DNA of 64,000 nt from Sneathiella sedimenti (lineage in GTDB: Bacteria > Pseudomonadota > Alphaproteobacteria > Sneathiellales > Sneathiellaceae), in contig NZ_JAFLNC010000003.1 in assembly GCF_017313765.1 (NCBI RefSeq), positions 124,001-188,000 on the forward strand. The letters run 5' to 3'. Positions 20,907-43,652 of the stretch are shown piece after piece (positions within the stretch are counted from its first letter, which is position 1; every line of letters begins with the position of its first letter). The position numbers were made by a program, and so were the translations under genes. Below the pieces are notes generated by a model that was given only the letters and a program-made list of their open reading frames with translations, was not told the origin of the DNA and ran no database searches.

Positions 20907-20943
20907 ACTCGGACACTCCGGGGTAATCGCTAAAGGAGTATGC

Positions 20944-20994: not shown

Positions 20995-21086
20995 TTCAAT
21001 CGTTGCATCTTTCGGAGTCCATATATAGTCTACCTTTCCAATGGACGGTAATTGTCGTCTCGTTGAGATGGCGTATACAAAAGCCA

Positions 21087-21983
21087 ATGGTGCCTATGAC
21101 GGATATTCAGCAGGATATACTTAAGGTCATCGAGAGAGAATATGACCAATTAAGTCCGCAACTGAGATTGGCAGCGCGGTTTGCCCTAGACCGTCCAGAC
21201 CGCATTGCCTTTTATTCCATGCGTGAAGTGGCGGCGCAGGCAGATGTCTTGCCGCCAACGATGTTACGCCTCGCAAAGCGGCTGGGGTTTAATAATTTTA
21301 ACGATTTTCGGGACAGATTCCGCGATAGGATTGAGGCGCCCGGCGGCTCTTACGCTGCACGTGCACGGCAATTGCAAATGCGCAAGATGCTGACATCTGG
21401 ATCTGGTCTCTTGCGGGAAATATGTGACGCCGACAGGCGCAATATAGAGCTTACCTTTGAGACCATTGACGATGCCGCCATCATGGCGGCTGCCGAAACC
21501 TTCATCAAGGCGGAAACAGTCAATATTATCGGTTTAAGAAAGTGTTTTCCGATAGCCTTTTACTTCCATTATGCAACCCGTGTTTTCTTTCCAAATGCAC
21601 GCTTGATCCAGGGGCAGGCAGGTTTGTATGGCGAGGAAATCTCCCGTATCTCTGAACGGGATGCAGTTCTCGTCATTGCCTTCGATCCCTACACGAAAGA
21701 AACTGTAAGAGCAGCCAGGGCCGCGCATTCCGTTGGAGCCCAGTTGACCTCTATTACCGACAGTGTCGTCTCCCCATTGGCGGTTGGCGCGAATCATCTA
21801 TTTCTAGTGGCGAACAGAAGTCCCTCATTCTATCGGTCCTTGGTTGGTGCCATGGCCGTCGTTCAGGCCCTGGTTGCTGCGATTGTTAGTAAGCTCGGCG
21901 AGGATGCTGTTGATAAGCTGCAGGCGTCTGAAGCCCTCCTTCGCGACAATAACACCTATTGGATAAATGGAGATGTCGGATGA
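21087..21983 (+). CDS. RpiR-family transcriptional regulator (HTH plus SIS domain)
   Basis: DNA-binding regulator of 298 residues from ATG 21087 (ATG 21096 is an alternative; the frame stays open up to 20940). The N-terminal HTH_6 domain holds YSMREVAAQADVLPPTMLRLAKRLGF, in which the recognition helix follows the AQADV turn (motif quoted from VAAQADVLPPTMLRLAKRL). The C-terminal half is a SIS sugar-isomerase-like ligand domain, with INIIGLRKCF-like and VLVIAFDPYTKETVRAAR segments. RpiR proteins usually sense a phosphorylated sugar or a catabolic intermediate. Its stop overlaps the start of the class III aminotransferase gene by 4 bp, so it should regulate that gene and perhaps the TAXI-TRAP genes beyond. 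Confidence 0.85.
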   Translation: MVPMTDIQQDILKVIEREYDQLSPQLRLAARFALDRPDRIAFYSMREVAAQADVLPPTMLRLAKRLGFNNFNDFRDRFRDRIEAPGGSYAARARQLQMRKMLTSGSGLLREICDADRRNIELTFETIDDAAIMAAAETFIKAETVNIIGLRKCFPIAFYFHYATRVFFPNARLIQGQAGLYGEEISRISERDAVLVIAFDPYTKETVRAARAAHSVGAQLTSITDSVVSPLAVGANHLFLVANRSPSFYRSLVGAMAVVQALVAAIVSKLGEDAVDKLQASEALLRDNNTYWINGDVG

Positions 21984-23323
21984 CACATGTATTTCATCGA
22001 AATCCGCGAGCTGAGCTACCCGTCGCCGCGCGAGGAGAGGGGCCGTACATCTATGATACCTCGGGTAAACAGTATCTAGACGCCAGCGGCGGCGCCGCGG
22101 TTTCCTGTTTGGGGCATAGCAACTCCTCAGTCGCCAAAGCCATGAAACAGCAGATTGACGGGATCTCATTCTCCCACAGTGGATTTTTCACTAATCAGCC
22201 TATGGAGGATTTGGCCGATTTCCTGGTCAAGCGGGCTCCCGCTAATCTTGATCGCGTTTACTTTGTGTCGGGAGGGTCGGAAGCTGTGGAAGCGGCTTTG
22301 AAGCTGGCCCGGCAATACTTTCTGGAGAAAGGCGAGACAAGCCGGACCCGTTTTATTTCGCGGCGGCAGAGTTACCACGGAAATACAATCGGAGCGCTGG
22401 CAGCGGGCGGGAATCAATGGCGGCGAGAACCTTATGCACCGTTGCTGATGTCGGTTCCCCTCATTTCACCCTGTTATGAGTATCGCGAAAAGAAGAACGG
22501 TGAAACGGAATGGGATTTTGGTCAGCGTGTCGCGGGAGAACTTGAAACGGCATTGCTAGACACTGGGCCAGAAAATGTCTGCGCCTTTATTTGCGAGCCA
22601 GTCGTGGGAGCAACAATGGGCGCCGTGCCAGCGGTCAAGGGCTATTTCAAACGCATACGGGAGATTTGCGATCAATATGGTGTCCTGTTTATTGCTGATG
22701 AAGTGATGTGCGGCATGGGCCGGACCGGTAGCCTTTATGCTGTTGAACAAGAAGACGTGGCGCCAGATATCCTGGTGACGGCAAAAGGGCTGGGAGCTGG
22801 GTATCAGCCAATTGGTGCAATGCTTGTTTCTGAAGGAATATTCACGACGATCGTCAATGGATCAGGCTTTTTCCAGCATGGACATACCTATATGGGGCAT
22901 CCAGTCGCGTGTGCGGCGGCGCTCGCCGTACAGCACTATATTGAAGACAATGATTTGCTGTCCAGTGTGCGCCATCGTGGAGCGCAGTTGGCCGAAGCTT
23001 TAACTTCTCGGCTTGGAAATAATCCATTTGTCGGAGATATACGGGGGCGCGGTCTTTTCCAGGGAATTGAGCTTGTTGCAGATCGCATGACAAAGGAACC
23101 GCTGGATCCCTCCCTCAAAATACATGCGAAAATAAAGAGCGCGGCTATGGCCGCCGGGCTTATGTGTTATCCAATGGGGGGAACAATTGACGGGCAGCGT
23201 GGTGATCACATTCTGCTGGCGCCCCCCTTTATTATCAACGATGGGCATATCGAGGAAATCGTCGATAAACTGGGTACAGTGATTGATGAAATCGTTGGCA
23301 GTTTGCCCTCTTCGCGCGCTTGA
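21980..23323 (+). CDS. Class III pyridoxal-phosphate aminotransferase
   Basis: Omega-amino acid or diamine-type aminotransferase of 447 residues. ATG 21980 is chosen because it gives the coupled ATGA overlap with the RpiR stop; a frame 7 codons longer exists. Family features are YLDASGGAAVSCLGH near the N-terminus, FVSGGSEAVEAALKLARQ near residue 100, the ADEVMCGMGRTG motif near residue 240 and the PLP lysine in TAKGLGAGYQPIGAM near residue 275. The family acts on amines remote from the carboxylate, such as GABA, beta-alanine, putrescine or taurine. The RpiR/aminotransferase/TAXI order suggests uptake and transamination of one compound, not identified. Confidence 0.88.
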   Translation: MTHVFHRNPRAELPVAARGEGPYIYDTSGKQYLDASGGAAVSCLGHSNSSVAKAMKQQIDGISFSHSGFFTNQPMEDLADFLVKRAPANLDRVYFVSGGSEAVEAALKLARQYFLEKGETSRTRFISRRQSYHGNTIGALAAGGNQWRREPYAPLLMSVPLISPCYEYREKKNGETEWDFGQRVAGELETALLDTGPENVCAFICEPVVGATMGAVPAVKGYFKRIREICDQYGVLFIADEVMCGMGRTGSLYAVEQEDVAPDILVTAKGLGAGYQPIGAMLVSEGIFTTIVNGSGFFQHGHTYMGHPVACAAALAVQHYIEDNDLLSSVRHRGAQLAEALTSRLGNNPFVGDIRGRGLFQGIELVADRMTKEPLDPSLKIHAKIKSAAMAAGLMCYPMGGTIDGQRGDHILLAPPFIINDGHIEEIVDKLGTVIDEIVGSLPSSRA

Positions 23324-23680
23324 AAGTGCTGCTGTATGTAAGCGCTCTTGCCATGGAAGGGGTTGTGGAGGTAGGCTTTGGAAACCGTCTGGCGCGAGCT
23401 TTTAAATAAGCTGCACACCGCGATGCAGTTCTATTCTGCCAGACCGGTAAATTACGGAACGTATTGGCGCGCTGGTGCAATATTCTGTAATGCAAGGCGG
23501 ATGTTATATAAAAATGAGGGCGAAATTGCTCCAACACAGAATTTTCCTTTTGGTACTTTATACCAGGAATTGAGAGGAAAGGCCGACTTTGGAGATTAAT
23601 CTTCGAATTTGGCATATTGCGTTGCTAGGGGAGATCAAGAAATTGCTAGCAACATGTTTTATAGGTGAAGGAGATATATA
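23324..23680. other. Intergenic region before the TAXI-TRAP genes
   Basis: About 357 bp with no credible gene. The ribosome site AAGGAG at 23668-23673 serves the next gene. The palindrome-like TAAGCGCTC near 23338-23346 could be a regulator site, but this is not supported further. Confidence 0.35.
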
Positions 23681-24655
23681 ATGAGAAAGTTTTTTGCCTT
23701 GGCTGCGGTAGCGGTCACCGCCATCGGCGGGGTTAGTTTGACGGCTGCGCCGGCGAGCGCGGAAACATTTATTACTATCGGAACAGGCGGACAGACCGGC
23801 GTTTACTATCAGGTAGGTGGCGCAATTTGTAAATTGGTCAACCGCGGGACCAGCGACCACGATATTAAATGTACCCATACGACAGGCGGCTCCGTAAAAA
23901 ACATCAATGGTATTCGCGCGGGCGACCTGGATATGGGTGTTGCCCAGTCTGACTGGCAATATCATGCTTATAATGGTACGGCCCCCACGCAGTTTCCGGA
24001 TGGTAAGTTCGAAGAGCTGCGCGCTGTATTTTCCGTTCACCCCGAGCCATTTACGGTCGTGGCCCGCAAAGATTCAGGGATCAAGACCTTTGAAGACCTG
24101 AAAGGGAAACGTGTGAACGTCGGTGATCCCGGGTCCGGACAGCGCGGCACGATGGAAGTCGTCATGGAGAAAATGGGCTGGACGATGGATGATTTTGCGC
24201 TGGCATCAGAGCTCAAATCATCTGAGCAAGCGGCGGCTTTGTGTGACAACAAGGTTGACGCCATTGTCTTCACCGCGGGCCACCCGAATGGCTCAATCAA
24301 AGAGGCAACCACCTCATGCGAAGCGGTTCTGGTGAATGTCAATAATGACGTGATCAAGAAGCTGGTTGCTGATAACGCATTTTATGCAATGGCGACAATT
24401 CCGGGCGGAATGTATACCGGAACGGATGAAGATGTAGAAACATTCGGTGTTGGTGCAACGTTTGTGTCTTCTACTAAGACCGATCCGGAAGTGGTTTACC
24501 AGATCGTGAAGGCGGTTTTCGATGACATTGACCGGTTCCGGAAAATGCATCCCGCATTCGCTAATCTGGATACCAAGCTGATGATTACGAATAACCTTTC
24601 TGCACCTTTGCATGAAGGAGCTGTTCGATACTACAAGGAACAAGGCTGGATGTAA
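23681..24655 (+). CDS. TAXI-family TRAP transporter solute-binding protein
   Basis: Periplasmic binding protein of 324 residues. A signal peptide (RKFFALAAVAVTAIGG, cleaved after PASA near residue 27) precedes the TAXI hallmark ITIGTGGQTGVYYQVGGAIC. The second lobe contains LKGKRVNVGDPGSGQRGTM, also highly conserved. TAXI systems import dicarboxylates, glutamate or related acids with a fused permease, which is the next gene. A strong terminator separates the two, which should let the binding protein be made in excess. Confidence 0.9.
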   Translation: MRKFFALAAVAVTAIGGVSLTAAPASAETFITIGTGGQTGVYYQVGGAICKLVNRGTSDHDIKCTHTTGGSVKNINGIRAGDLDMGVAQSDWQYHAYNGTAPTQFPDGKFEELRAVFSVHPEPFTVVARKDSGIKTFEDLKGKRVNVGDPGSGQRGTMEVVMEKMGWTMDDFALASELKSSEQAAALCDNKVDAIVFTAGHPNGSIKEATTSCEAVLVNVNNDVIKKLVADNAFYAMATIPGGMYTGTDEDVETFGVGATFVSSTKTDPEVVYQIVKAVFDDIDRFRKMHPAFANLDTKLMITNNLSAPLHEGAVRYYKEQGWM

Positions 24656-24665
24656 GCCAACTCGG

Positions 24666-24697
24666 GCAGGCGGGAAAGCATATCCCGCCTGCTTTTT
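24666..24697 (+). terminator. Intrinsic terminator between TAXI binding protein and permease
   Basis: A perfect 10-bp stem, GCAGGCGGGA at 24666-24675 with TCCCGCCTGC at 24683-24692, encloses a 7-nt loop and is followed by TTTTT at 24693-24697. It lies 10 bp after the binding-protein stop and 67 bp before the permease start. Confidence 0.88.
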
Positions 24698-24763
24698 CTT
24701 ATATTATGAGGTGAAGAAGCGAACCGGATTGGGATTGTGTAATAGAAGAGGGGGAGACTTTCT

Positions 24764-27583
24764 ATGAGCAGCAACGACGAAAAAAAACCGCTCAGTGTCG
24801 AAGAGCTAGAAGATCTGGTTGCATCGACCGACGTAGGTGGCCGTAATCCGTCGAACCGGAATATCGCTCTGCTAATTGCGGCTCTGGCCCTGATTTGGTC
24901 GTTGTGGCAAGTATGGATTGCCTCGCCAATTCCGTATATTTTTGGCTGGGGTGTCTTTTCAGGCAAGGAAGCCCGCCCTATTCATCTGGCCTTTTCGTTG
25001 ATACTGGCTTTTCTCGCCTATCCAGCCTTCAAAAGATCTCCACGGGATCACGTGCCCGCTTTTGACTGGCTGCTTGGCATTCTCGGTATTTTTACGACGA
25101 TGTATCTCGTCTTTTTCGATAGTGCCATCGCGGACAGCTTGATGGGCTCCCGTCTTTCTGACCGGCCCGGAAATCCGAATTTGGTGGATATCGTCGTTGC
25201 CTGTGTTGGTGTCGTTGTCCTTTTGGAGGCAACCAGGCGCGCGCTTGGTCCGCCTTTGATGATCGTCGCCATGGTATTTCTTGGATATACCTTCCTGGGC
25301 CCCTATGCGCCCGGAATTCTTGCCTGGAAAGGTGCAAGTTTTGGGGCGGTTGCGGATCACCAATGGCTTTCTTCGGAAGGCGTCTTCGGTATCGCCCTTG
25401 GTGTATCGACAGGCCTCGTGTTTCTTTTCGTGTTGTTTGGTGCGTTGCTCGATAAGGCCGGCGCGGGCAATTACTTCATTAAAGTTGCCTTTTCCCTTAT
25501 GGGGCATATGCGGGGTGGGCCTGCAAAGGCGGCTGTCGTGGCCTCCGGCATGACAGGATTAATATCCGGTTCGTCAATCGCCAATGTGGTCACAACCGGC
25601 ACCTTCACCATTCCCATGATGAAACGCGTCGGGTTTAATGCGGAAAAGGCGGGTGCCGTCGAGGTGGCGTCTTCCGTTAATGGCCAGATTATGCCGCCTG
25701 TGATGGGCGCTGCGGCCTTCCTGATGGTTGAATATGTTGATATCAGTTATTTTGAGGTCGTAAAGCACGCATTTGTGCCTGCTATCATCTCCTATATTGC
25801 TCTCGTCTACATCGTGCATCTGGAAGCCATGAAGCTGAATATGCAGGGCCTGGATAGGGTTGGAGACGTCAAGCCGATGAAGCTGGCGTTGTTATCGTTT
25901 GGTATTACCCTTGCGACCATCCTCATTCTGGGAGGCGGTATCTATTATCTGTCTGAATTGTTCCACCTGCTGGATACCTCCCTAAACCGACTTATTGCAA
26001 TCCTGATCCTGATTTTACTTCAGGTTGGCATCTTCAAAGTAGCTGTTGAGAAAGCGGAAGAGGGGACGAAAGCAAAGATATTCTCCAAGGGGGCACTGAT
26101 CCTCTGCAACATAGTAATTGCCAGTTTCGCAATCTTCTTTGCCGTAGACCTCTTGCGGCAACTCGTCGGTCCGACCCTTACGCCCTGGATTGCCGGTGCG
26201 GCGGTGCTTCTTGTCTATGTTTATCTGACGTCAATTTGCGCCAGGTATCCCGACCTCGTCGTTGATGATTCGAATGCGCCGATTACAACGCTTCCGGCAC
26301 CTGGCCCGACCGTTATGGCGGGATTACATTTCGTGTTGCCGGTTGGTGTTCTGATCTGGTGTCTGATGATTGAACGCTTGTCGCCTGAACTCTCCGCTTT
26401 CTGGGCCGTTGCGTTGATGATTTTTATCCTTCTTACTCAGCGACGCCTGTTTGCGTTATTCCGGAAAGAAGCAGGATCAGGGACATTCAAGCGTGGCTTT
26501 GACGAATTTATCGAAGGCATGATCGCAGGTGCCCGTAATATGATCGGCATCGGCATCGCAACCGCGTCGGCAGGAATTATTGTCGGTACGGTTTCACAGA
26601 CCGGTGTCGGCCTGGTTCTGGCGGAGCTCGTTGAATTTCTGTCCCAGGGACAGATTATGCTGATCCTGGTTTTTACGGCGGTGTTAAGCCTCATTCTGGG
26701 GATGGGCTTGCCTACAACGGCCAACTATATCGTTGTCTCGTCGCTTTTGGCACCGGTGATCGTAAGCCTGGGACAGCAAAACGGGCTTATTGTCCCTCTT
26801 ATTGCTGTCCATTTGTTTGTTTTCTATTTCGGGATTATGGCCGATGTTACGCCTCCGGTAGGCCTTGCGTCATTCGCGGCCGCGGCAGTTTCAGGTGGTG
26901 ACCCGATCCGAACCGGTTTTGTTGCCTTCTTCTATTCCCTACGAACAGCTATTTTGCCGTTCTTGTTCATCTTCAACACAGATTTGCTGTTGATTGATGT
27001 AACACCGGTGCAGGGATTTATTGTCTTTATCGTTGCCACTGTGGCCATATTGCTTTTTACGGCTGGAACACAGGGGTATTTTATGACCAAGTCGAAATTT
27101 TGGGAATCGATATTGCTCATCTTGATCGCATTTACCTTGTTCCGACCCGGTTTCTGGATGGATATTATTTCCCCGCCCTTCGATAAAGCGGACCCGGTTG
27201 GAATAGTCGAGGCTGTTCAGAATGCACCGGCGGGATCGGAGTTGCGGTTTATTGTCCAGGGTTTGGACGATGTTGGCGACGAGCTGGTTTTTACGGCGGT
27301 TATGCCAATTGGAGATGAAGCGACTGGCGAGGAAAGACTTGAAGATTATGGCCTTCAGATACTGATCGAAGATAATAAGGTCATCATTGATAACGCAGTG
27401 TTTGACAGTCCTGCACAAGCTGCCGGCCTCGATTTTGATCAACAGATTCTGACGATCCTGGTTCCAGTGAGCCAGCCTGCGAAGGAGCTGTTGTACATAC
27501 CCGCCATCTTGCTTCTTGGTGGCATCTATTGGCTGCAACGTCGCCGACAACGGCTTGGTTTTTCATCGACCAGCACCGCGTAA
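24764..27583 (+). CDS. TAXI-TRAP transporter fused permease (DctQM-like, with C-terminal DUF3394-type domain)
   Basis: A 939-residue inner-membrane protein, with about four N-terminal helices (small-subunit part), the 12-helix DctM-like core and extra C-terminal helices. Diagnostic core segments are SGSSIANVVTTGTFTIPMMK and MPPVMGAAAFLMVEYV in the first repeat, and LGMGLPTTANYIVVSSLLAP and FYFGIMADVTPPVGLASFAA in the second. After residue 770 comes a soluble stretch (about 805-905) and a final helix, as in permeases annotated with a DUF3394 tail. The good ribosome site GAGGGGGAG precedes the start. It works with the TAXI binding protein and is followed 16 bp later by a universal stress protein gene. 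Confidence 0.9.
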   Translation: MSSNDEKKPLSVEELEDLVASTDVGGRNPSNRNIALLIAALALIWSLWQVWIASPIPYIFGWGVFSGKEARPIHLAFSLILAFLAYPAFKRSPRDHVPAFDWLLGILGIFTTMYLVFFDSAIADSLMGSRLSDRPGNPNLVDIVVACVGVVVLLEATRRALGPPLMIVAMVFLGYTFLGPYAPGILAWKGASFGAVADHQWLSSEGVFGIALGVSTGLVFLFVLFGALLDKAGAGNYFIKVAFSLMGHMRGGPAKAAVVASGMTGLISGSSIANVVTTGTFTIPMMKRVGFNAEKAGAVEVASSVNGQIMPPVMGAAAFLMVEYVDISYFEVVKHAFVPAIISYIALVYIVHLEAMKLNMQGLDRVGDVKPMKLALLSFGITLATILILGGGIYYLSELFHLLDTSLNRLIAILILILLQVGIFKVAVEKAEEGTKAKIFSKGALILCNIVIASFAIFFAVDLLRQLVGPTLTPWIAGAAVLLVYVYLTSICARYPDLVVDDSNAPITTLPAPGPTVMAGLHFVLPVGVLIWCLMIERLSPELSAFWAVALMIFILLTQRRLFALFRKEAGSGTFKRGFDEFIEGMIAGARNMIGIGIATASAGIIVGTVSQTGVGLVLAELVEFLSQGQIMLILVFTAVLSLILGMGLPTTANYIVVSSLLAPVIVSLGQQNGLIVPLIAVHLFVFYFGIMADVTPPVGLASFAAAAVSGGDPIRTGFVAFFYSLRTAILPFLFIFNTDLLLIDVTPVQGFIVFIVATVAILLFTAGTQGYFMTKSKFWESILLILIAFTLFRPGFWMDIISPPFDKADPVGIVEAVQNAPAGSELRFIVQGLDDVGDELVFTAVMPIGDEATGEERLEDYGLQILIEDNKVIIDNAVFDSPAQAAGLDFDQQILTILVPVSQPAKELLYIPAILLLGGIYWLQRRRQRLGFSSTSTA

Positions 27584-27599
27584 ATGAGGGGAGAATAGA

Positions 27600-28028
27600 A
27601 TGTTCAAGGATATCTTGCTTGCTGTGGATATCGAGGATATGCAGTCATGGAAAAAGCCTGTTGTGGTGGCGACGGAATATGCCAGGGCTTTTAACTCCAA
27701 TTTGCATATTATAACAGTGGTCCCGGACTTTGGCATGAGTATTGTCGGTTCATTCTTTCCCAAGGATCATGAAAAAAAGATGGTTGAAAAGGCTAATGAA
27801 ACACTCCACAAATTTGTGAAGGAGCATGTTTCTGAAGATATTCATGTCCAGCATATTATCGGCCTCGGGTCGATATATGAGGAGATTCTTCGGGTAAGCC
27901 GGGAAATCAAATCTGATTTGATTATAATGGGAACGCATCGGCCCAAAGTGCAGGACTACCTGCTTGGTCCCAACGCGGCGCGGGTGACCCGCCATGCCAC
28001 CTGTTCAGTGATGGTGGTGCGGGATTAA
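27600..28028 (+). CDS. Universal stress protein, UspA family
   Basis: A 142-residue single-domain Usp protein. The N-terminal strand MFKDILLAVDIED is typical, and the ATP-binding signature near the C-terminus reads MGTHRPKVQDYLLGPNAARVTRHATCSVMVV, close to the G-2x-G-9x-G(S/T) pattern (GTHR, LLGPNAARV, CSVMVV). It starts 16 bp after the TRAP permease gene. A Usp gene beside a TRAP permease is a recurring arrangement; in TeaABC-type ectoine transporters the Usp-like protein binds ATP and tunes the transporter. A similar role is likely here. Confidence 0.88.
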   Translation: MFKDILLAVDIEDMQSWKKPVVVATEYARAFNSNLHIITVVPDFGMSIVGSFFPKDHEKKMVEKANETLHKFVKEHVSEDIHVQHIIGLGSIYEEILRVSREIKSDLIIMGTHRPKVQDYLLGPNAARVTRHATCSVMVVRD

Positions 28029-28716: not shown

Positions 28717-29135
28717 CCGTATTCCATTCGCAGAGGGAAATTGCAGCAGTGTAAAATAATATCCAACGAGAAGGCATTTACTCAGCAATTCCGGGCCTGG
28801 GTTTGGATGGGACAGCGGCAGTAGCGTATCATCGCCCAACCGTTGACCGGCAAATCATAGGGACGAATAACTTCGGAGAGGGGAATGTTGTGAGTCGACC
28901 CCCTGTTTCAGGTCAATTTCAGGATAAACCCTACAGCAATTCAAAATTATAAGCGCTTTAAAATACAATCAGTTAGGTATTTTTATCTCGGTGAAATTTC
29001 CATTTATTAGCATCAGCGAAAAAAACGCTTGACGATTGGTCAAATCATTCTAAATATTCGCTTGCTTGGAAGTGTGGCGACAGAATCGACGATTGTCGCG
29101 CGACGGCCCCTTCTGACACAGAGAACCATCTTAAG
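28717..29135. other. Intergenic region upstream of the kamA cluster
   Basis: About 420 bp with no gene seen; AT-rich in the second half. It includes the perfect palindrome AAGCGCTT (28951-28958), of the LacI-operator type, and a possible promoter at 29029-29056. Confidence 0.4.
29029..29056 (+). promoter_or_regulatory. Possible promoter of the kamA cluster
   Basis: TTGACG at 29029-29034 is a good -35 box. After 16 nt comes TAAATA at 29051-29056, a weak -10 box. Transcription would begin about 70 nt before the kamA start. The spacer contains the imperfect inverted repeat GATT-5-AATC. Evidence is only sequence resemblance. Confidence 0.3.
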
Positions 29136-30446
29136 ATGAACTCACTTATGTCTGGTCAAGCGGCAAAGGAGGCCGCTAAGCCGCCCAGTCGACGCTTACT
29201 TCAAAGCGCAGACTTTAAATCCCTTCCCCATATTGTTGCAGACAGCACCGCGTTTGCGGAAACGACTGCATTTCCGATATCGGAGCGATCCCGCGTCTTC
29301 AAGGACCGGTTCTTCCCTGCCGCGAGCGACGCGGAATGGCTGGACTGGCGCTGGCAGCTCAGAAACCGGATCAGGTCCCTCGCGGGTCTTGAACGGATTT
29401 TCAATCTTACGGACGACGAACGTGACGCGGTATCGCGCCATACTGGTTCGTTGCCAATGGGCATCACCCCTTATTATGCAAGCTTGATGAGCCTGGACAA
29501 TCCGTCCGAGGGTCTGCGGCGTACGCATATCCCGGTTGGTGATGAATTCATCAAGATGCCGGGTGAGGCCGACGATCCACTTGGTGAGGATCACGACGCG
29601 GCGGTGCCGGGTCTTGTGCATCGTTATCCGGACCGGGTGTTGTTCCTCGCAACGGGTTTCTGTTCGACTTACTGCCGCTATTGCACGAGATCGCGCATGG
29701 TCGGTGAAGCTGGCGGTGAATATGAATTCTCTAAATCCCAGTGGGAGAAGGCGTTCGATTATATCGCAGCGCATCCTGAAATCCGTGACGTACTGATTTC
29801 GGGCGGCGACCCACTGACCTTGTCGGATGACCGTCTCGATTATCTGCTGACGCGGCTTCGGGCGATCGAGCATGTGGAGTTTATTCGCATCGGCTCAAAG
29901 ATCCCGGTGGTGATGCCCATGCGGATTACCAAGTCACTGACAGATATGTTGAAAAAGCATCATCCGTTGTGGATGAGCATTCATTTCACTCATCCGGATG
30001 AATTGACACCGGAAGTGACCGAGTCGACCGCGCGGCTTGCCGACGCGGGTATTCCGCTTGGCAGTCAGACGGTTTTGCTGAAAGGTATCAATGACGATAT
30101 CTCGATCATAAAGCCATTGATGCACGGTTTGCTCAAACGCCGGGTGAAACCTTATTATCTTTATCAATGCGACCCGATTACCGGGTCTTCGCATTTCCGG
30201 ACCCCGGTGGCAAAGGGCCTTGAAATCATAGAGGGATTGCGTGGTCACACGACGGGCTATGCCATTCCCACATATGTGATTGATGCGCCTGGCGGCGGCG
30301 GCAAGATTCCGCTACTTCCTGACTATGTCGTTGGCCGCGATGGTGAAGACCTTATCCTCCGTAACTTCGAGGGCGGGACCTATCGTTACCATGATCCTGG
30401 CGGTGTAATCGGGTCTGAACCCTGCCATCAGGAGGCCGCGCAATGA
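29136..30446 (+). CDS. kamA: Lysine 2,3-aminomutase-type radical SAM enzyme (KamA family)
   Basis: PLP-dependent radical SAM aminomutase, 436 residues. The cluster-binding cysteines are C176, C180 and C183 in CSTYCRYC. The PLP lysine is K390 in DAPGGGGK. The two aspartates that bind the side-chain amine of lysine in Clostridium lysine 2,3-aminomutase (D293 and D330) have counterparts D346 in YQCDPITG and D383 in VIDAPG, with the same spacing of 37; glutamate 2,3-aminomutases carry Lys and Asn there. The predicted reaction is therefore L-lysine to beta-lysine. It is the first of four genes overlapping or nearly touching; the usual partner beta-lysine acetyltransferase AblB is absent as a separate gene. 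An overlap of 4 bp joins it to the next gene. Confidence 0.88.
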   Translation: MNSLMSGQAAKEAAKPPSRRLLQSADFKSLPHIVADSTAFAETTAFPISERSRVFKDRFFPAASDAEWLDWRWQLRNRIRSLAGLERIFNLTDDERDAVSRHTGSLPMGITPYYASLMSLDNPSEGLRRTHIPVGDEFIKMPGEADDPLGEDHDAAVPGLVHRYPDRVLFLATGFCSTYCRYCTRSRMVGEAGGEYEFSKSQWEKAFDYIAAHPEIRDVLISGGDPLTLSDDRLDYLLTRLRAIEHVEFIRIGSKIPVVMPMRITKSLTDMLKKHHPLWMSIHFTHPDELTPEVTESTARLADAGIPLGSQTVLLKGINDDISIIKPLMHGLLKRRVKPYYLYQCDPITGSSHFRTPVAKGLEIIEGLRGHTTGYAIPTYVIDAPGGGGKIPLLPDYVVGRDGEDLILRNFEGGTYRYHDPGGVIGSEPCHQEAAQ

Positions 30447-31447
30447 AGCTCGGCCTCGTCTATGATCTGCGGGACGATTATCTCGCCATTGGCTTCTCGG
30501 AAGAGGAGACCGCTGAGTTCGATTCCCGGGCAACTATTGATGCTCTCGAAGGCGCCCTTGGACGTCTCGGATGGGATGTCCAACGGATCGGGCGTGGACA
30601 GGAACTCGCCCGCCAACTGGTCGGCGGGGAGCGGTTCGATCTTGTCTTTTCCATCGCAGAAGGCCTGCATGGGCGGTCTCGCGAGGCGCAGGTTCCGGCG
30701 CTTTGCGAGATGTTCGATCAACCATATGCCTTTTCCGATCCATTGACCATGGCGGTAACGCTGGATAAGCCTGTCGCCAAGCGCATCGTTCGGGACAGCG
30801 GCATTCCGACAGCGGATTTCGTTATTCTCGAGAGGGCAACGAGAGACTTGCCGGATATTGCTTTTCCGGCGTTCCTGAAACCGATTGCGGAAGGGACGGG
30901 CAAGGGCTGCGGCGGACGTTCCAAAGTTTCAAACAAGGTTGAGCTGAAACGCGAGGCCGCGCGGTTGATCGAGAAATTCCATCAGCCCGTGATTGCCGAG
31001 AGCTATCTCGCTGGACGCGAGTTCACTGTCGGTATCGTCGGTAATGGCGCGAATGCAAAGGTAATCGGGGTGATGGAAATTGCTGTCAAACCCGATGCGG
31101 ACAGCGGTATCTATAGTTACGAAATCAAGGAAAATTGGGAGCCATTTGTAACGCTTGCGCTGGTGGATGACGCAGAGGCACAGCTTGCGGGCACGCGGGC
31201 ATTGGCCGCCTATCATGCGCTTGGCTGCCGTGATGGGGCGCGGGTCGATCTTAAATCCGACAGCCAGGGTTCGCCGCAGTTTCTCGAAGTGAACCCGATC
31301 GCCGGATTACATCCGACCCATTCGGATTTACCGATCTTGACAACGAAGGCGGGCTTCAGTTACGACTGGCTGATTGGCGAAATCACAACGTCGGCAATCG
31401 CGCGCTATAATCTTCAAACTTCGGCTGCTGACATACGGGCGGCCTGA
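30443..31447 (+). CDS. ATP-grasp ligase, D-alanine--D-alanine ligase-like (first of two)
   Basis: A 334-residue ATP-grasp enzyme. Nucleotide-binding features are FPAFLKPIAEGTGKGCGG (near residue 135; from FLKPIAEG to GCGG) and ESYLAGREFTVGIVG. The metal-binding end is ARVDLKSD followed by FLEVNPIAGLHP, the E-x-N motif of D-Ala-D-Ala ligases. The N-terminal part has LVFSIAEGLHGRSREAQVPAL, where true D-Ala ligases have the conserved HGxxGEDG-type loop, so the acceptor site differs. The Ddl-type serine-tyrosine loop is not conserved. It is not expected to be the cell-wall ligase; in this cluster it more likely joins an amino acid to another through an acyl phosphate. The start codon overlaps kamA by 4 bp. 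Confidence 0.85.
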   Translation: MKLGLVYDLRDDYLAIGFSEEETAEFDSRATIDALEGALGRLGWDVQRIGRGQELARQLVGGERFDLVFSIAEGLHGRSREAQVPALCEMFDQPYAFSDPLTMAVTLDKPVAKRIVRDSGIPTADFVILERATRDLPDIAFPAFLKPIAEGTGKGCGGRSKVSNKVELKREAARLIEKFHQPVIAESYLAGREFTVGIVGNGANAKVIGVMEIAVKPDADSGIYSYEIKENWEPFVTLALVDDAEAQLAGTRALAAYHALGCRDGARVDLKSDSQGSPQFLEVNPIAGLHPTHSDLPILTTKAGFSYDWLIGEITTSAIARYNLQTSAADIRAA

Positions 31448-31454
31448 GACGTCA

Positions 31455-32420
31455 ATGGCAGACTATATCCCGGTCCTGCATGGTGGCACGGACCTCCGGG
31501 CGGACGAGCTTGACACCATTGAGAGCGCAAAATGTGTTGCAGCGGCGCTTGAACGCCTTGGCTATAGAAGCAATGTCATCGCGCTCGATATCGATTTTAC
31601 AATTATTGAAGAACTGGCCAAGGAACAGCCACTCGTGATTTTCAATCTCGTTGAGAGTATTCGCGGAAACGGCAGCCTTGGCCATCTCGCCTGCGCCCTG
31701 CTGGCGCATTTTCACCTTCCCTACACGGGAGCGGGGGAGACGGCCTTTTTTCAGAGCAATTCGAAACGGCTTTCTAAGTCGCTACTTCGGGCGTCAAATC
31801 TGCCGACTCCTAGGGAATGGGCTGGCGCGGTACCTGCAGGTCAGACGGTCATTATCAAATCAGTCAATGAGCATGCATCTTACGGTATGGATCAACAGTC
31901 CATTGTCGAGGGGCATGAGGCGGAAGACGAGATCATCAGAAGAGAGGCGCAATTCGGCGGTCGCTTTTTCGCCGAAGCCTATATTCCGGGGCGGGAGTTC
32001 AATATTTCGCTTCTGGAATCAAAGACGGGACTACAGGTTCTGCCGATCGCGGAAATGCATTTTGATGGATTGCCCGAGGGTGTTTATCCAATTGTTGACT
32101 ATAATGCCAAGTGGGACGAGGAAAGTGATGTCAATCATCACACCCGGCGCAGGTTTGGCTTGGAGGAGCAAGAGCCGGACCTTGCGGCAGAACTCAGGCG
32201 CTTGTGCGTTGACTGTTGGTTTGCCGCGGACCTCAGTGGTTACGCGCGGGTCGATTTTCGCGTTGATGCCAAGGGCCGGATTTTTATCCTCGAGTATAAC
32301 GCCAATCCCTGCCTCGCGCGGGATGCAGGTTTCGCGGCGGCTCTCACGGAGGCCGGTATGAGCTATGAAGAAGGTATCCAAATGATTGTCGATGCGGCCC
32401 TTGCGAAGGAAGTGAACTGA
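31455..32420 (+). CDS. ATP-grasp ligase, D-alanine--D-alanine ligase-like (second of two)
   Basis: A 321-residue ATP-grasp protein, started at ATG 31455, 7 bp after the previous stop; the frame is open further upstream, but that part overlaps the preceding gene. Motifs include LVIFNLVESIRGNGSLGHLACALL (N-terminal, quoted from FNLVESIRG to HLACA), TVIIKSVNEHASYGMD for ATP binding, YIPGREFNISLLE, and the metal-binding ARVDFRVDAKG and FILEYNANPC (E-x-N). It is clearly related to the preceding ligase but diverged, which suggests two successive condensations with different substrates. Its stop overlaps the next start by one base (TGATG). Confidence 0.84.
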   Translation: MADYIPVLHGGTDLRADELDTIESAKCVAAALERLGYRSNVIALDIDFTIIEELAKEQPLVIFNLVESIRGNGSLGHLACALLAHFHLPYTGAGETAFFQSNSKRLSKSLLRASNLPTPREWAGAVPAGQTVIIKSVNEHASYGMDQQSIVEGHEAEDEIIRREAQFGGRFFAEAYIPGREFNISLLESKTGLQVLPIAEMHFDGLPEGVYPIVDYNAKWDEESDVNHHTRRRFGLEEQEPDLAAELRRLCVDCWFAADLSGYARVDFRVDAKGRIFILEYNANPCLARDAGFAAALTEAGMSYEEGIQMIVDAALAKEVN

Positions 32421-34687
32421 TGTTTCGTATTCGAACCCTTACCGATGCCTCGGCCCCCGCCAACCAGAAGGCCATTGGTGAAATCCAGGCAATTATTCGG
32501 GATCAATTTTCCGATATGACGGACAAGGACATCGCCAAGCTGCCGGACCAGATTTCCGATCCAATCACCCATCAGTTCGTCGCCAAGGTCTCCGTCGCAG
32601 AGGATGGGCGTGGACGTATTCGCGGCTTCTCGTTGCTGCTTGTCGATCCACAGCTCAATTTTGGCTATCTTGAACTGATTGCGACGGCAAAAAGCGGGTC
32701 GGGTAGCGGTGTCGGAGCTGCCCTCTATGAACAAATCCAGCAACGCGCACGGGAAAAGGGACTGCGTGGCCTTTATTTTGAATGTCTGCCCGATGATCCG
32801 GAGTTGAGTCCTAACCCCGCCATTCGCAAGCAAAATGAAGACCGGCTCCGCTTTTATGAAGGGTTCAATGCCTATCCAATTATGGGGACGGATTACGAGA
32901 CACCGGTTACACCGGGAACGACCGATAGCCCCTATCTGATGTTTGATGGTCTTGGCGAATTCATGGTGCCGCCTGCCGTGACGCTACGCCGGATAGTTCG
33001 CGCAATCTTGGAACGGAAATACGCCGACCTCTGTCCACCAGAATATGTGCAACGGGTTGTAGAGTCGGTCAAGGACAACCAGTATGCGATCAGGCTGCCG
33101 CGTTACGGCAGCACACTGCCCGACGTTAAACAACAAGCAATCGCCGCGAAAATTCCGCTCATTGTCAATGACCGGCATGATATCCATCATATTCGCGAGC
33201 GAGGGTATGTTGAGGCGCCGGTCCGTATCGAATCAATCCTGAAGGAGCTGGAACCGACAGGGCTTTTTTCCGTGAAGTCGCCAAAGCATTATGGCGATCG
33301 CCATATCAAAGCAGTCCACGATACCCGGCTCGTCGATTACATCGAGCGCGCCTGCGCAGATGCGCCTGAAGGAAAATCGATTTATCCCTATGTCTTCCCG
33401 ATCCGGAACGCACAGAGAATGCCCAAGGATCGTTCCGTTCTTGCCGGATATTGGTGTATTGATACCTTCACACCGCTCAACCGCAATGCCTTTCCGGCAG
33501 CACGGCGGGCTGTTGATTGCACCCTGACGGCGACAGAAGCGGTTCTCGATGGAGCGCGCGCCGCTTATGCTCTTGTGCGTCCACCTGGCCATCACGCAGA
33601 GAGCCGCGCCTTCGGCGGTTTCTGTTATTTCAATAACGCTGCGATATCGGCGCAATATCTCTCCCGTTATGGGAGGGTGGCTGTGCTTGACGTTGATTAC
33701 CATCATGGGAACGGCACACAAGACATTTTCTATGAACGTGGCGATGTTCTGACTGTCTCGATCCATGGCGATCCATCCTTCGCCTATCCCTATTTTACCG
33801 GATTTCGCAATGAAACCGGGCGAGGGGCAGGAGCAGGCTGTAATCTTAATATTCCGTTGCCGGAGACAATTACGGCCGATATCCATCGCGAGGCCCTCAA
33901 GAAAGCCTTTGTCCGCATCAAGGATCATGCACCGGCCTATTTGGTGGTCGCGCTAGGCCTGGATGCGGCCAAGGGGGATCCGACAGGTACCTGGCCGTAT
34001 CGCGCTGCCGACTTCTTCAAGATGGGGGCATTGATCGCCGGAATAGGCCTGCCGACGGTGTTTGTGCAAGAGGGCGGTTATCGCGTGCGCAATCTCGGTG
34101 TCAACGCCCGGCGCTTTTTTGAAGGGGTGGCAAGTGTTGCCAAGACGCCAGACTTGACCTGGGAACTGAAACGTAAAGGCGGCATGGGCAAGAATGAGCC
34201 GATGAAATGGCGCTCGTCCGTTGTTCCCGCCGATGTTGCCGAAATACGCCGGATCGTTATGGCCACCAACGCTTTTTCAGGTGAGGAGATCGATATCGCG
34301 GCGGAACTGGCAGAGGAACGGATCGCCAAGGGCCGGGTCTCTGGCTATGAGTTTATTCTCGCCACGCAAAATGGAAAACTCGCGGGCTATACCTGCTATG
34401 GCAAGACTCCGGGCAGCGAGCGGGCGTATGATCTTTATTGGCTCGCCGTCGATCCCGACCGACAGCGCAGCGGTCTCGGGCACCAAATTCTGGAACGGAC
34501 CGAGGCGGCTATTCGCAAAGCAGGTGGTGCGTTCATGATTGCGGAAACCTCGTCAACGGGTGCCTATGACAAGGCACGTGCATTTTATGAGCGGGTCGGG
34601 TTCGAGAAGTTGGTTGAAATCAAGGATTTTTATCGGCCCGGAGACAACAAGGTCATTTACCGGAAAAGCTGTCCGCCTCAATCCTAA
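32420..34687 (+). CDS. Trifunctional fusion: GNAT acetyltransferase - acetylpolyamine-type deacetylase - GNAT acetyltransferase
   Basis: A 755-residue fusion. Residues 1-175 form a GNAT domain (acetyl-CoA loop region SGSGVGAALYEQI at 94-106). Residues about 190-590 are a histone deacetylase/acetylpolyamine amidohydrolase domain: RPPGHHAE with H391/H392, zinc ligands D426 and H428 in DVDYHHGNGTQ, SIHGDPSFAYPYFTG (the polyamine-deacetylase signature), D515 in ALGLDAAKGDP, and the catalytic tyrosine Y554 in QEGGY. Residues 597-748 are a second GNAT domain with RQRSGLGHQIL (motif A). All catalytic residues of the deacetylase are kept. With kamA and two ligases it probably acetylates and deacetylates a beta-lysine-containing compound; the exact step is inference. 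Confidence 0.87.
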   Translation: MFRIRTLTDASAPANQKAIGEIQAIIRDQFSDMTDKDIAKLPDQISDPITHQFVAKVSVAEDGRGRIRGFSLLLVDPQLNFGYLELIATAKSGSGSGVGAALYEQIQQRAREKGLRGLYFECLPDDPELSPNPAIRKQNEDRLRFYEGFNAYPIMGTDYETPVTPGTTDSPYLMFDGLGEFMVPPAVTLRRIVRAILERKYADLCPPEYVQRVVESVKDNQYAIRLPRYGSTLPDVKQQAIAAKIPLIVNDRHDIHHIRERGYVEAPVRIESILKELEPTGLFSVKSPKHYGDRHIKAVHDTRLVDYIERACADAPEGKSIYPYVFPIRNAQRMPKDRSVLAGYWCIDTFTPLNRNAFPAARRAVDCTLTATEAVLDGARAAYALVRPPGHHAESRAFGGFCYFNNAAISAQYLSRYGRVAVLDVDYHHGNGTQDIFYERGDVLTVSIHGDPSFAYPYFTGFRNETGRGAGAGCNLNIPLPETITADIHREALKKAFVRIKDHAPAYLVVALGLDAAKGDPTGTWPYRAADFFKMGALIAGIGLPTVFVQEGGYRVRNLGVNARRFFEGVASVAKTPDLTWELKRKGGMGKNEPMKWRSSVVPADVAEIRRIVMATNAFSGEEIDIAAELAEERIAKGRVSGYEFILATQNGKLAGYTCYGKTPGSERAYDLYWLAVDPDRQRSGLGHQILERTEAAIRKAGGAFMIAETSSTGAYDKARAFYERVGFEKLVEIKDFYRPGDNKVIYRKSCPPQS

Positions 34688-36471: not shown

Positions 36472-36554
36472 ACCATGACCCGTGAACAACTTAGAGGGAG
36501 AAGTTTTGTGAGGGGCAGAGTGATCTTCAGAAACGGATAGTCTTGAATAAGCTA

Positions 36555-38327
36555 ATGGAAAGACGTCTGACAACTATCGTGGCAGCGGACCTCGTGGGAT
36601 ATTCGCGGTTGGTCTCGAATAACGAAGAGGCCGTGATCACGAGATTTCGGGAATTGCGGCACGAGCTTATCATTCCGGCGATTTCCAGCGCCCAGGGCCG
36701 GGTCATCAAAACCATGGGAGATGGGTTTCTCGTCGAGTTCCCGTCGCCGCGCGCTGCATTGCATACGGTCGTTTTCCTCCAACACGCAATGTTTGAACGC
36801 GAAGGTGCGGTCCCCCTTGAAACACGATTAATGTTCCGTATCGGAATCAATTACGGTGAGGTAATTGTTGATGGCGATGACGTGCTGGGAGACGTGGTCA
36901 ACATCGCTGCCCGCCTTGAAAGCATTGCGCCGCCGGGCGGTGTCTGCGTCTCCGAGACTGTATTTACAGAAGTCGCTGATGCCAGCGACACGCTCCTGGT
37001 GCCATTGGGGCCGCAATATGTGAAGAACATTCCGGCGCCAGTTAATGCATGGAACGTGCTGATTAAGGGCGTTGATGCCAGACCAACGAAACCTCCCAGA
37101 AGATCAGAGCGTCCGTCCATCGCGGTACTGGCGTTTGAAAATAACTCGGATGATGACGAACAGCGGTTCCTCGCGGACGGTATTGCCGAGGATGTTATTG
37201 TCCAGTTGTCGCGTTTTCGATCTCTTTTCGTCATCGCGCGAAATTCGGCCTTTTCTTACAGGAACACTCACAAGGACGTGCGCGAAATAGCCAGTGAGCT
37301 TGGGGTGCGCTACGTTGTCGAAGGATCGGTTCGCCGGGGGGGAGATCGTCTGCGGGTGAGTGCACACCTGGTTGAGGCGAAAACCGGAGGGCATATCTGG
37401 TCTGGCCGCTGGGATCGCATGGTGTCAGACCTGTTTGACTTGCAGGATGAATTAACCCGCGCGATTGTGTCTGAGCTTGCACCGGAACTTGGCGCGAATG
37501 AGCGGTCGCTGGCAAGGCGCAAACCTACAGAAAACCTGACGGCGTGGGAATTATGCCAAAAGGGGTTGGCAGAGTTTTATAATTACAATAACGAGAGTTA
37601 TCCCGCGGCGGCAAAGCTGTTTAAAGCAGCAATCGACGCTGACCCGGAATTTGCCTTGCCATATGCACTTTTGGGGCGTTGGCATTCTGTCATGGTTACG
37701 ACCGGCCGAAGTAGCGATATTCCCAATGATGTGCAGCAAGGGTTGGTCAATGCGAGCAAGGCCATTGAGCTGGACGATCGATTGGAGGACGGGCATGTCG
37801 CACTCGGGTCGTTGTTGACCCTGATGCGTCAGGAAACGCCGGCCAAAGAGTCTCTGGATCGCGCCTATGCGCTGAATGATAACAACCCGGTAATGTATCA
37901 CGCGCGCACGATGTTCTATCTATATCAGGTTGACCCCGATACACACGCGATGGAAAAATCGGCACAAACGGCCTTGGCACTTAATCCAAAGGACCCGTTG
38001 GCCTGGGCATTCCATTTCATGATCGGGACGGCCCGATGGATGCGGGACCTTGAAAATCTGCGACCAGATGTGAAAGAACCGATAGATGCCGCCTGTGCAT
38101 CGATGCAGGCGGATTACTTTCCGCTCATGGTTGGGGCAACGCTGTATGCGCGCCTGAATGATCTGGATCAGGCAAAATACCTGCTGGAGCGGGCCATTGG
38201 TCGTCGGCCAGCTTTGTCGCTGAAGATGTGGCAAACGGCCTTTCCGTTTCCATCATGGCCGCGCATGATCAAGTCAATCGAGCCAGAGTTGGAGAAGCTG
38301 GTCGAAATCGGGTTGCCCCGGGAGTAA
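36555..38327 (+). CDS. Class III adenylate/guanylate cyclase with TolB-like and TPR region
   Basis: A 590-residue signalling protein. ATG 36555 is chosen because MERRLTTIVAADLVGYSRL is the common start of this family; a TTG four codons earlier is possible. The cyclase domain (1-170) keeps both metal aspartates, D12 in AADLVGYS and D56 in GDG, and the transition-state pair N116 and R120 in NIAAR. A TolB-like segment follows (SIAVLAFENNSDDDEQRFLADG to about residue 310; motif cited AVLAFENNSDD), then TPR-type helices to the end. Proteins of this build are abundant in Rhizobiales and Rhodospirillales. There is no membrane segment, so it should be cytosolic. The signal it senses is unknown. Confidence 0.87.
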   Translation: MERRLTTIVAADLVGYSRLVSNNEEAVITRFRELRHELIIPAISSAQGRVIKTMGDGFLVEFPSPRAALHTVVFLQHAMFEREGAVPLETRLMFRIGINYGEVIVDGDDVLGDVVNIAARLESIAPPGGVCVSETVFTEVADASDTLLVPLGPQYVKNIPAPVNAWNVLIKGVDARPTKPPRRSERPSIAVLAFENNSDDDEQRFLADGIAEDVIVQLSRFRSLFVIARNSAFSYRNTHKDVREIASELGVRYVVEGSVRRGGDRLRVSAHLVEAKTGGHIWSGRWDRMVSDLFDLQDELTRAIVSELAPELGANERSLARRKPTENLTAWELCQKGLAEFYNYNNESYPAAAKLFKAAIDADPEFALPYALLGRWHSVMVTTGRSSDIPNDVQQGLVNASKAIELDDRLEDGHVALGSLLTLMRQETPAKESLDRAYALNDNNPVMYHARTMFYLYQVDPDTHAMEKSAQTALALNPKDPLAWAFHFMIGTARWMRDLENLRPDVKEPIDAACASMQADYFPLMVGATLYARLNDLDQAKYLLERAIGRRPALSLKMWQTAFPFPSWPRMIKSIEPELEKLVEIGLPRE

Positions 38328-41923: not shown

Positions 41924-42649
41924 TCAGGAATGTGATCGCATCAGGGCGACCTGTAATCCATATTGTACGTTCTGTAATCCACCATCGATATTTTCCAACA
42001 GGCATCTTCTCGCCATTTCGATGTTCCCTTTTTCGATGGCGTCGATAATTTCCAGATGCTCACGACAGGTTTCCCCAATTCGTCCGTCACGCTGAAAATC
42101 GATAGTCCTAAAGAACAGTAATCGTTCGCTAAGAGACCGTAAGGCATTCAAAATAACTTTGTTACCTAACAATTCCGCGAGACCTTCATGGAAGTCCTGA
42201 TCCAATAGCGCGGCCTTTGCAGGCTCCGGATCCACACCTGCTTCATGAGATTTCTGGATATCTAGCCACTGAACTTTCAACGCTTTCAATCCGGCCTGCC
42301 TCTGCTCTAGAACACACAGCCGCTCGATCACGTATAGCTCGATGGCTTCGCGAAACTCGTAAATGTCCCGAACTTCTTCAAAGCGAACTTGCTTAACCAC
42401 AAATGAGCGGTTTTTTCGGCGCTCTGCCAAACCAGCGGATTCCAGCATTTGCAGGGCTTCGCGCACAGGGCTACGGCTGACACCAAATTCCTCGCTCAAC
42501 TCTTCTTCAACCAAGAGTGTGTTGGGGGGGTACTCCCAATTCAGGATTCGTCGCTTTAGAGTATCTGATATTTTTTGTCCCAAACTTATCTTGGTTTTGC
42601 CACTCTGCTTTGCCCGTTGTTCGGTTTTAGAGTTTGATTTCACTGACAA
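41924..42649 (-). CDS. GntR-family regulator, FadR/FCD subfamily
   Basis: Transcriptional regulator of 241 residues. The winged helix lies at about 25-95, with PNTLLVEEELSEEFGVSRSPVREALQ (GntR signature from LSEEFGVSRSPVREAL) and an all-helical FCD ligand domain behind it, with the conserved IYEFREAIELYVIERL start. A charged, lysine-rich N-terminal tail of about 20 residues is unusual. It is the last of eight genes on the same strand, 36 bp after carbamate kinase. It probably senses a ureide or degradation intermediate and represses the operon at the palindromes 50422-50465. Confidence 0.87.
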   Translation of the reverse strand: MSVKSNSKTEQRAKQSGKTKISLGQKISDTLKRRILNWEYPPNTLLVEEELSEEFGVSRSPVREALQMLESAGLAERRKNRSFVVKQVRFEEVRDIYEFREAIELYVIERLCVLEQRQAGLKALKVQWLDIQKSHEAGVDPEPAKAALLDQDFHEGLAELLGNKVILNALRSLSERLLFFRTIDFQRDGRIGETCREHLEIIDAIEKGNIEMARRCLLENIDGGLQNVQYGLQVALMRSHS

Positions 42650-42685
42650 TATTTTATTTCACATTTCTATATTGAAAACAAAGGC

Positions 42686-43636: not shown

Positions 43637-43652
43637 CAGATGATCCTCACTA

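Follow-up and report, generated by a model that had tools for sequence, protein, structure and literature searches.

What does a bacterium make with a KamA-type aminomutase, two peptide ligases of the D-Ala-D-Ala-ligase type and an acetyltransferase that can be fused to a deacetylase? The question is raised by a four-gene cluster at positions 29136-34687 of a 64,000-nucleotide stretch of the Sneathiella sedimenti genome (NCBI RefSeq assembly GCF_017313765.1, contig NZ_JAFLNC010000003.1, positions 124,001 to 188,000), referred to below as the window. We found that the core of this cluster, namely KamA, the two ATP-grasp ligases (AG1 and AG2) and the acetyltransferase GNAT2, is a conserved unit, and that the remaining part, the acetyltransferase-like region GNAT1 joined to an HDAC deacetylase domain, is optional. 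The best reading of the gene content is that the product would be a soluble, acetylated di- or tripeptide containing beta-lysine, possibly a compatible solute, with optional deacetylation; we put the odds of an acetylated beta-lysine peptide metabolite at about even.

A sequence-only reading of this DNA had listed a KamA, two ATP-grasp ligases and a GNAT-deacetylase-GNAT fusion encoded in tightly packed genes, and both the content and the positions were borne out by open reading frames and Pfam matches. KamA (29136-30446, 436 aa; Radical_SAM and LAM_C) overlaps by 4 bp with AG1 (30443-31447, 334 aa), which is followed after a gap of 4 bp by AG2 (31452-32420). The start of AG2 was taken as the ATG at 31452, giving 322 aa; the mechanical open reading frame begins at a TTG at 31374. 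Each ligase matches Dala_Dala_lig_C, and the last gene (32420-34687, 755 aa; Hist_deacetyl and GNAT matches) overlaps AG2 by 1 bp. All four genes lie on the plus strand.

A conserved core and an optional deacetylase

The sequence-only reading was staked on the cluster being conserved as a unit, and its gene order indeed recurs in many phyla. With AG1 as the bait and a threshold of E ≤ 1e-35, 28 carriers turned up among 385 genomes of the class and 20 among the 398 of the phylum sample (the Sneathiella genome counted in each), and wide regions were taken for 40 of the 50 AG1-matching genomes besides our own (27 from the class, 19 from the phylum and 4 from the order). A scan of named genomes yielded at least 583 stretches, at least 571 of them confirmed, and the best 80 were used. 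Six domain profiles were run over 119 loci, 116 of them distinct after three duplicates (L126, L158 and L165) had been removed; an AG1-like row with 35% identity (L116, genome G377) was also left out before counting. Profile search was used for the cluster genes because a simple open reading frame caller missed real genes in G+C-rich loci.

Gene content was counted at those distinct loci, 67 in all, at which AG1 is flanked by 5 kb in either direction. KamA accompanied AG1 at 62 of these, AG2 at 57, GNAT2 at 50 and GNAT1-HDAC at 14, and since the counted loci are the best-scoring ones, these fractions may drop among more distant relatives. The commonest orders were KamA-AG1-AG2-GNAT2 (33 loci) and KamA-AG1-AG2-GNAT1-HDAC-GNAT2 (11 loci), followed by KamA-AG1-AG2 (7), KamA-AG1 (6) and rarer arrangements (6). 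The core unit is KamA-AG1-AG2-GNAT2. The idea of a four-gene system ending in an acetyltransferase/deacetylase fusion therefore holds in part: the fusion is real, but its GNAT1-HDAC portion is optional and is encoded by a separate gene elsewhere. Proteins combining GNAT1, HDAC and GNAT2 were found at 15 loci, AG2-GNAT2 fusions at 7 and an AG1-AG2 fusion at 1, and a GNAT1-HDAC protein without GNAT2 was present at 13 loci, two of which (L081 and L124) are cut by a contig end. Because GNAT1-HDAC and GNAT2 are separate genes in other bacteria, the last gene of the cluster in the window is best seen as a fusion of two units.

The association was also recovered in reverse, starting from 2r7h, a GNAT2 relative with a solved structure. 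A sample of 395 genomes from the phylum, presumably Desulfobacterota, of a deltaproteobacterial carrier (L171) contained 128 with a match, the best of them 55% identical, and at the 30 loci taken, the best-scoring ones among these 128 genomes, the next upstream same-strand cluster domain was AG2 in 24 and HDAC in 6.

The 80 named AG1 loci span 15 phylum-level groups. In a tree of these loci, the window copy and one D-Ala-D-Ala ligase (Ddl), the window sequence groups with Hyphomicrobiaceae and other alphaproteobacterial copies (support 100/93). The tree is largely phylum-like with many exceptions, requiring 27 label changes over the 15 groups against a shuffled mean of 47.1. HDAC-bearing copies are, by eye, scattered across it, and the GNAT1-HDAC part has for this reason probably been gained or lost repeatedly. 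Plasmids held no close relatives: none of 542 plasmid records carried AG1 at 60% identity, the 20 matches listed did not exceed 35%, and no plasmid record covered 80% of the fusion protein. Three of the plasmid matches (H21, H24 and H27, under L258), from Rhizobium and Sinorhizobium plasmids, are ATP-grasp proteins that share 31-35% of their residues with AG1.

The neighbour families that recurred most often, F4 at 19 loci and F5 at 8, are by their positions probably antisense reading-frame artefacts, and beyond them the simple caller gave no other neighbour family in more than six loci. At four loci (L169, L175, L176 and L178, from three Planctomycetota and one Desulfosarcinaceae), a small cysteine-rich protein of 162-209 aa is encoded between KamA and AG1.

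KamA has the residues of a lysine 2,3-aminomutase

KamA aligned over its core with the lysine 2,3-aminomutase structure 2a5h (E 1e-134). Equivalents of the CxxxCxxC cysteines, Arg134, Asp293, Asp330 and the pyridoxal phosphate-binding Lys337 are present in all 99 cluster KamA copies. Among these residues, Asp293 and Asp330 presumably bind the side-chain amine of the substrate and are replaced in glutamate aminomutase. The protein scores below the AblA equivalog cut-off (TIGR03820; 485.1 against 525.4 bits) because it is short at the C-terminus, with model positions 365-417 uncovered. The only cut-off that it exceeds is that of the KamA subfamily (TIGR00238; 365 against 199 bits), and it stays far under those for glutamate (414 against 650) and arginine (387 against 600) aminomutases. 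It is the sole KamA-family gene in the genome. The lysine-type residues argue strongly that the cluster KamA would convert L-lysine into L-beta-lysine, the product that had been predicted for it from the DNA.

The two ligases share the Ddl fold and differ in their pockets

Both ligases had been described as D-Ala-D-Ala-ligase-like, and structure prediction agreed. The AlphaFold models are confident (predicted local distance difference test 90.4 for AG1 and 94.6 for AG2), and for either model all 50 listed PDB matches are D-Ala-D-Ala, D-Ala-D-lactate or D-Ala-D-Ser ligases. Residues were compared across 116 AG1, 88 AG2 and 18 Ddl sequences of the order, the last chosen by motif from 22 candidate Ddl loci. 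The two Lys, the Glu, the Asp and the final Asn of the ATP-grasp site, which we take to be ATP- and metal-binding, are kept in 116 of 116 AG1 and 88 of 88 AG2 copies, as is the Ddl Arg for the second substrate; a further metal Glu is present in every AG1 and, in AG2, is Glu in 84 and Asp in 4 copies.

The substrate pockets are another matter. In E. coli Ddl, His63, Tyr216 and Ser281-Leu282 are the D-Ala-binding residues, the Ser-Leu pair holding the second carboxylate. Beside the first substrate, all 116 AG1 copies have Glu in place of the His, and the 88 AG2 copies have Glu (85) or Asp (3). At the position of the active-site Tyr, most AG1 copies carry Glu (99 of 116) and all 88 AG2 copies carry Trp. 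The Ser281 equivalent is kept in all AG1 copies and in only 16 of the 88 AG2 copies, and that of Leu282 is Asp in 108 of 116 AG1 and Gly in every AG2. Judged by these residues, the pockets of AG1 and AG2 are altered from that of Ddl, each in a different way, while the fold and the ATP-grasp catalytic residues are shared. With its amines, beta-lysine is the kind of substrate that an acidic side chain in the pocket for the first substrate might favour.

We considered whether AG1 or AG2 could be a Ddl isozyme, and rejected this. Besides the differing pocket residues, both miss the NCBIfam D-Ala-D-Ala ligase cut-off (best scores 134 bits for AG1 and 109 bits for AG2, against 243), and since a genuine Ddl is encoded elsewhere in the genome, between MurB and FtsQ genes by Pfam, neither is needed as a cell-wall ligase.

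Reduced gene sets suggest that AG1 acts next to KamA in the proposed route

KamA and AG1 without an adjacent AG2 or GNAT2 occur in a Magnetococcales genus (seven genomes) and in two cyanobacteria, and because these keep KamA and AG1 alone, AG1 appears to be more closely tied to KamA than AG2 is. On this evidence AG1 would be the enzyme that takes beta-lysine, and AG2 and GNAT2 would be an elaboration; the KamA-AG1 sets (L103, L105, L106, L108-L111, L179 and L193) may represent a simpler route to a beta-lysine dipeptide. In two of the seven Magnetococcales-genus genomes, KamA lies 1-2 kb away from AG1. In these nine genomes, several of which are incomplete, nothing matches the AG2 profile better than AG1 does, and three of them also have weaker second ligases.

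A search for AG2 in 16 genomes without AG2 beside AG1 recovered separate copies in G1188 (391 bits), G1192 (319 bits) and G1191 (212 bits) and broken pieces in G1190; AG1 was the best match in the other 12, of which G435, G489 and G788 also gave a second, weaker ligase. Four loci (L132, L141, L142 and L170) are cut by contig ends or have AG2 out of view and are uninformative on ligase order; for L132, a 212-bit match elsewhere in the genome may be AG2.

The acetyltransferase and deacetylase domains

GNAT2 (34190-34687), the core acetyltransferase of the cluster, has a solved relative, 2r7h (E 1.8e-43), whose name, putative D-alanine N-acetyltransferase of the GNAT family, is the depositors' label and which reportedly comes from Desulfovibrio alaskensis G20. 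The GNAT1 region (32420-32989), delineated by Pfam and profile search, is divergent and gave no convincing PDB relative; at all the loci examined, truncated ones aside, an HDAC domain comes after it.

The HDAC domain (33209-34123) was assigned to the zinc deacetylase family from its PDB relatives and a residue comparison. It is one of three HDAC-family genes in the 3.58-Mb genome, and its nearest solved relatives are acetylpolyamine amidohydrolases (E 1.2e-77), with which it has the zinc and catalytic residues in common: the zinc ligands, the His pair and the catalytic Tyr are kept in 27 of 27 copies. It differs from them in its fusion to GNAT domains and in the equivalent of Glu117, which binds acetylpolyamine and is Phe in all 27 copies; the Glu106 equivalent is Ser, Pro, Ala, Thr or Asn. 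In acetylpolyamine amidohydrolase, Glu117 stabilises a charged polyamine nitrogen (PMC5454378). Given the loss of Glu117 and the replacement of Glu106, a polyamine is an unlikely substrate for the cluster HDAC. By a term search, a survey of bacterial HDAC-type deacylases (PMC11532494) contains no mention of an aminomutase or an acetyltransferase domain.

Relation to described pathways

The nearest described use of beta-lysine is the AblA-AblB pathway to N-epsilon-acetyl-beta-lysine, which the cluster resembles in pairing a KamA/AblA-type lysine 2,3-aminomutase with a GNAT acetyltransferase. It differs in lacking AblB, in that GNAT2 is another GNAT, and in having two ATP-grasp ligases and sometimes an HDAC domain. 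The absence of AblB, noted earlier from the cluster, extends to the whole genome, in which there was no match at E ≤ 0.001. Of the 62 AG1-bearing genomes, two gave an AblB (TIGR03827) score above the cut-off (none of 28 in one set and 2 of 34 in another), as did 3 of 14 controls, and weak matches below the cut-off were found in 1 of the 28 and in 5 further of the 34; these genome-wide profile searches led us to reject the possibility that AblB had been overlooked. Since the AblB of the two positive genomes (G770 and G781, loci L198 and L199) adjoins another KamA, apart from the cluster, the two systems coexist, and these organisms would be well suited to separating the products of KamA-AblB and of the cluster.

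A second point of comparison is the asnO-ngg pathway to N-acetylglutaminylglutamine amide (NAGGN), in which Ngg does both the ATP-grasp ligation and the acetylation (PMC8070244). Ligation and GNAT acetylation, carried out there by one protein, are likewise linked in the 7 loci with AG2-GNAT2 fusions, and a small capped peptide would be the predicted outcome in the cluster as well. Unlike that pathway, the cluster has no protein matching TIGR03103 at E 0.001, and its KamA would supply beta-lysine. An AsnO amidotransferase is absent from the four cluster genes by Pfam; no genome search was aimed at AsnO. The true Ngg of this genome lies outside the window, about 83 kb from the cluster (G000:C3:68760-70391, L256), and scores 833 bits against a cut-off of 569, which none of the 14 control genomes exceeds. 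With no TIGR03103 match in the cluster and a true Ngg elsewhere, we rejected the possibility that the cluster is the NAGGN pathway; the resemblance in architecture is real, and membership is not.

The ATP-grasp/GNAT operons predicted by Iyer, Aravind and colleagues share with the cluster the combination of peptide ligases, amino-acid-modifying enzymes and GNATs; they differ in that the 2010 text, by a term search, contains neither 'aminomutase' nor 'deacetylase' (PMC2922099). Among the papers listed, a single one, on beta-phenylalanine degradation (PMC6150868), contains both 'ATP-grasp' and 'aminomutase'. We found no description of a KamA/two-ATP-grasp/GNAT cluster in the open-access literature searched, where coverage of lysine 2,3-aminomutase wording is imperfect; this falls short of saying that none exists. 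The likeliest place for an earlier description is a 2009 amidoligase survey by Iyer et al., which might mention the cluster.

A proposed route to an acetylated beta-lysine peptide

In the route that we propose, KamA would, on strong grounds, convert L-lysine into L-beta-lysine; AG1 would couple beta-lysine to another amino acid through an amide bond at the expense of ATP; and AG2, with its different pocket, may add a further residue. GNAT2 would then acetylate a free amine of the product, a step presumably coupled to AG2 because the two are fused in 7 loci. Where present, the HDAC domain might take the acyl group off again for turnover or reuse, and GNAT1 may re-acetylate. The likeliest use of the product would be as a cytoplasmic compatible or stress solute, following a logic similar to that of NAGGN with beta-lysine and other enzymes, but taken by itself we consider this osmolyte role rather doubtful. 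Overall, the interpretation offered by the sequence-only reading, in which beta-lysine is joined to other amino acids and acetyl groups are added and removed, is partly supported.

Several observations weigh against the proposal or its parts. The genome already has an NAGGN enzyme, so another osmolyte is hardly needed. Carrier sources, going by record titles, include groundwater and fen besides marine and saline sites and thus show no evident link with salinity, and no transporter or osmosensor family was seen with the simple caller to recur beside the cluster across phyla. AG1 is patchy in the order (E < 1e-100 in 5 of 25 genomes, our own included), and at 4 of the 67 counted loci it has no partner nearby, in addition to the 6 with KamA alone. 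GNAT1, found at E 1e-10 in 7 of 289 genomes of the class, has no AG2 within 1.5 kb upstream in three of these seven (L252-L254): one of the three, G073, has KamA, AG1, AG2 and GNAT2 on another contig, and the other two (G053 and G183; L253 and L254) have GNAT1-HDAC fusion genes in genomes outside the 28 AG1 carriers. A correlation between the six domain families in their pairwise distances (r 0.48-0.82; none of 500 shuffles as high) counts in favour of the proposal, but common ancestry alone could also explain it and it does not isolate co-function. Finally, the substrates and the product are predictions from genes, and the residue roles in lysine 2,3-aminomutase and Ddl are taken as general background.

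Patchiness would also suit a secreted specialised metabolite (a siderophore, an antibiotic or a signal) with beta-lysine as its foundation and assembled by ligases independent of nonribosomal peptide synthetases (NRPS). ATP-grasp ligases and GNATs are common in such pathways, and beta-lysine is a component of streptothricin and viomycin. Yet no exporter, receptor or regulator family recurs across phyla in the output of the simple caller, which divergent ones may escape, and few specialised metabolites would be expected to reach 15 phylum-level groups while their tree still mostly follows the phyla; we hold this explanation to be unlikely. The Ddl fold of both ligases and the ability of HDAC enzymes to act on protein acyl-lysine would instead accord with macromolecule modification, in which beta-lysine or beta-lysyl peptides are placed on peptidoglycan, protein or lipid and reversibly acetylated; elongation factor P carries attached beta-lysine in other bacteria. 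This is decidedly unlikely, given that no recurring cluster gene could be the target, that the nearest solved HDACs act on small acetylpolyamines, and that no further member of the KamA family, such as EpmB, is encoded in the genome (EpmA was not sought).

The presence of KamA at 62 and GNAT2 at 50 of the 67 loci, and the scarcity of AblB in AG1 genomes (2 of 62), could mean that the cluster makes plain N-acetyl-beta-lysine as an osmolyte, with GNAT2 replacing AblB and the ligases doing something else. We judge this quite improbable: KamA-AG1 occurs without GNAT2, G770 and G781 keep AblB and another KamA besides the cluster, and the AG2-GNAT2 fusions tie acetylation to ligation. That KamA yields the beta form of another amino acid is suggested by its score under the AblA cut-off (485 against 525 bits) and is very improbable in view of the Asp293 and Asp330 equivalents in 99 of 99 copies and scores far below the glutamate and arginine aminomutase cut-offs. 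A chance neighbourhood of ordinary genes, to which the scarcity of AG1 orthologues within the order (5 of 25 genomes) might be taken to point, is refuted by conservation, namely the same order and fusions across many phyla, and retains practically no probability.

An acetylated beta-lysine peptide as the product would have implications beyond Sneathiella. We tentatively suggest, at somewhat less than even probability, that KamA, two ATP-grasp ligases and a GNAT, with HDAC-type reversal in some, make an unrecognised and widespread class of N-acetylated beta-lysine oligopeptides, non-ribosomal and non-NRPS, that would be abundant intracellularly in about one-third of the deltaproteobacterial phylum (presumably Desulfobacterota), many Alphaproteobacteria and Planctomycetota. 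If so, a metabolite class has been missed across a large part of the bacterial tree, as the GNAT2 relatives in 128 of 395 genomes of the deltaproteobacterial phylum sample would imply, and a new lysine-derived solute could be sought in sediments and anaerobic digesters. One protein of this GNAT2 kind already has a solved structure, 2r7h, under a putative name. The two ligases would have a new beta-amino-acid specificity useful in peptide chemistry, and a bacterial HDAC would gain a natural small-molecule substrate. The cluster is compact and suited to testing in E. coli.

Surroundings of the cluster

The 419-bp stretch upstream of KamA (28717-29135, plus strand) is without an assigned gene and is a likely candidate promoter region; sigma-70-like matches in it are weak (best 9 of 12; 9 region-wide against 4.7 in shuffles). 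An Rfam scan of the window gave no match at gathering level. Phage or defence genes were considered and rejected, as PADLOC returned no match for any of the four cluster proteins and PHROGs gave generic acetyltransferases only.

Further upstream, 20940-28028 looks like an uptake locus with a tripartite ATP-independent periplasmic (TRAP) transporter: it encodes an RpiR/SIS regulator, a class-III aminotransferase, a TRAP solute-binding protein, a 939-aa DctM permease-DUF3394 fusion and a universal stress protein. The downstream neighbours have no evident link to the cluster. At 36543-38327 is a protein with an adenylate/guanylate cyclase domain and a weak tetratricopeptide repeat match, and on the minus strand at 41924-45059 a GntR-type regulator, an amino acid kinase and AllG (an oxamate carbamoyltransferase subunit) make up a probable purine/allantoin-type degradation locus.

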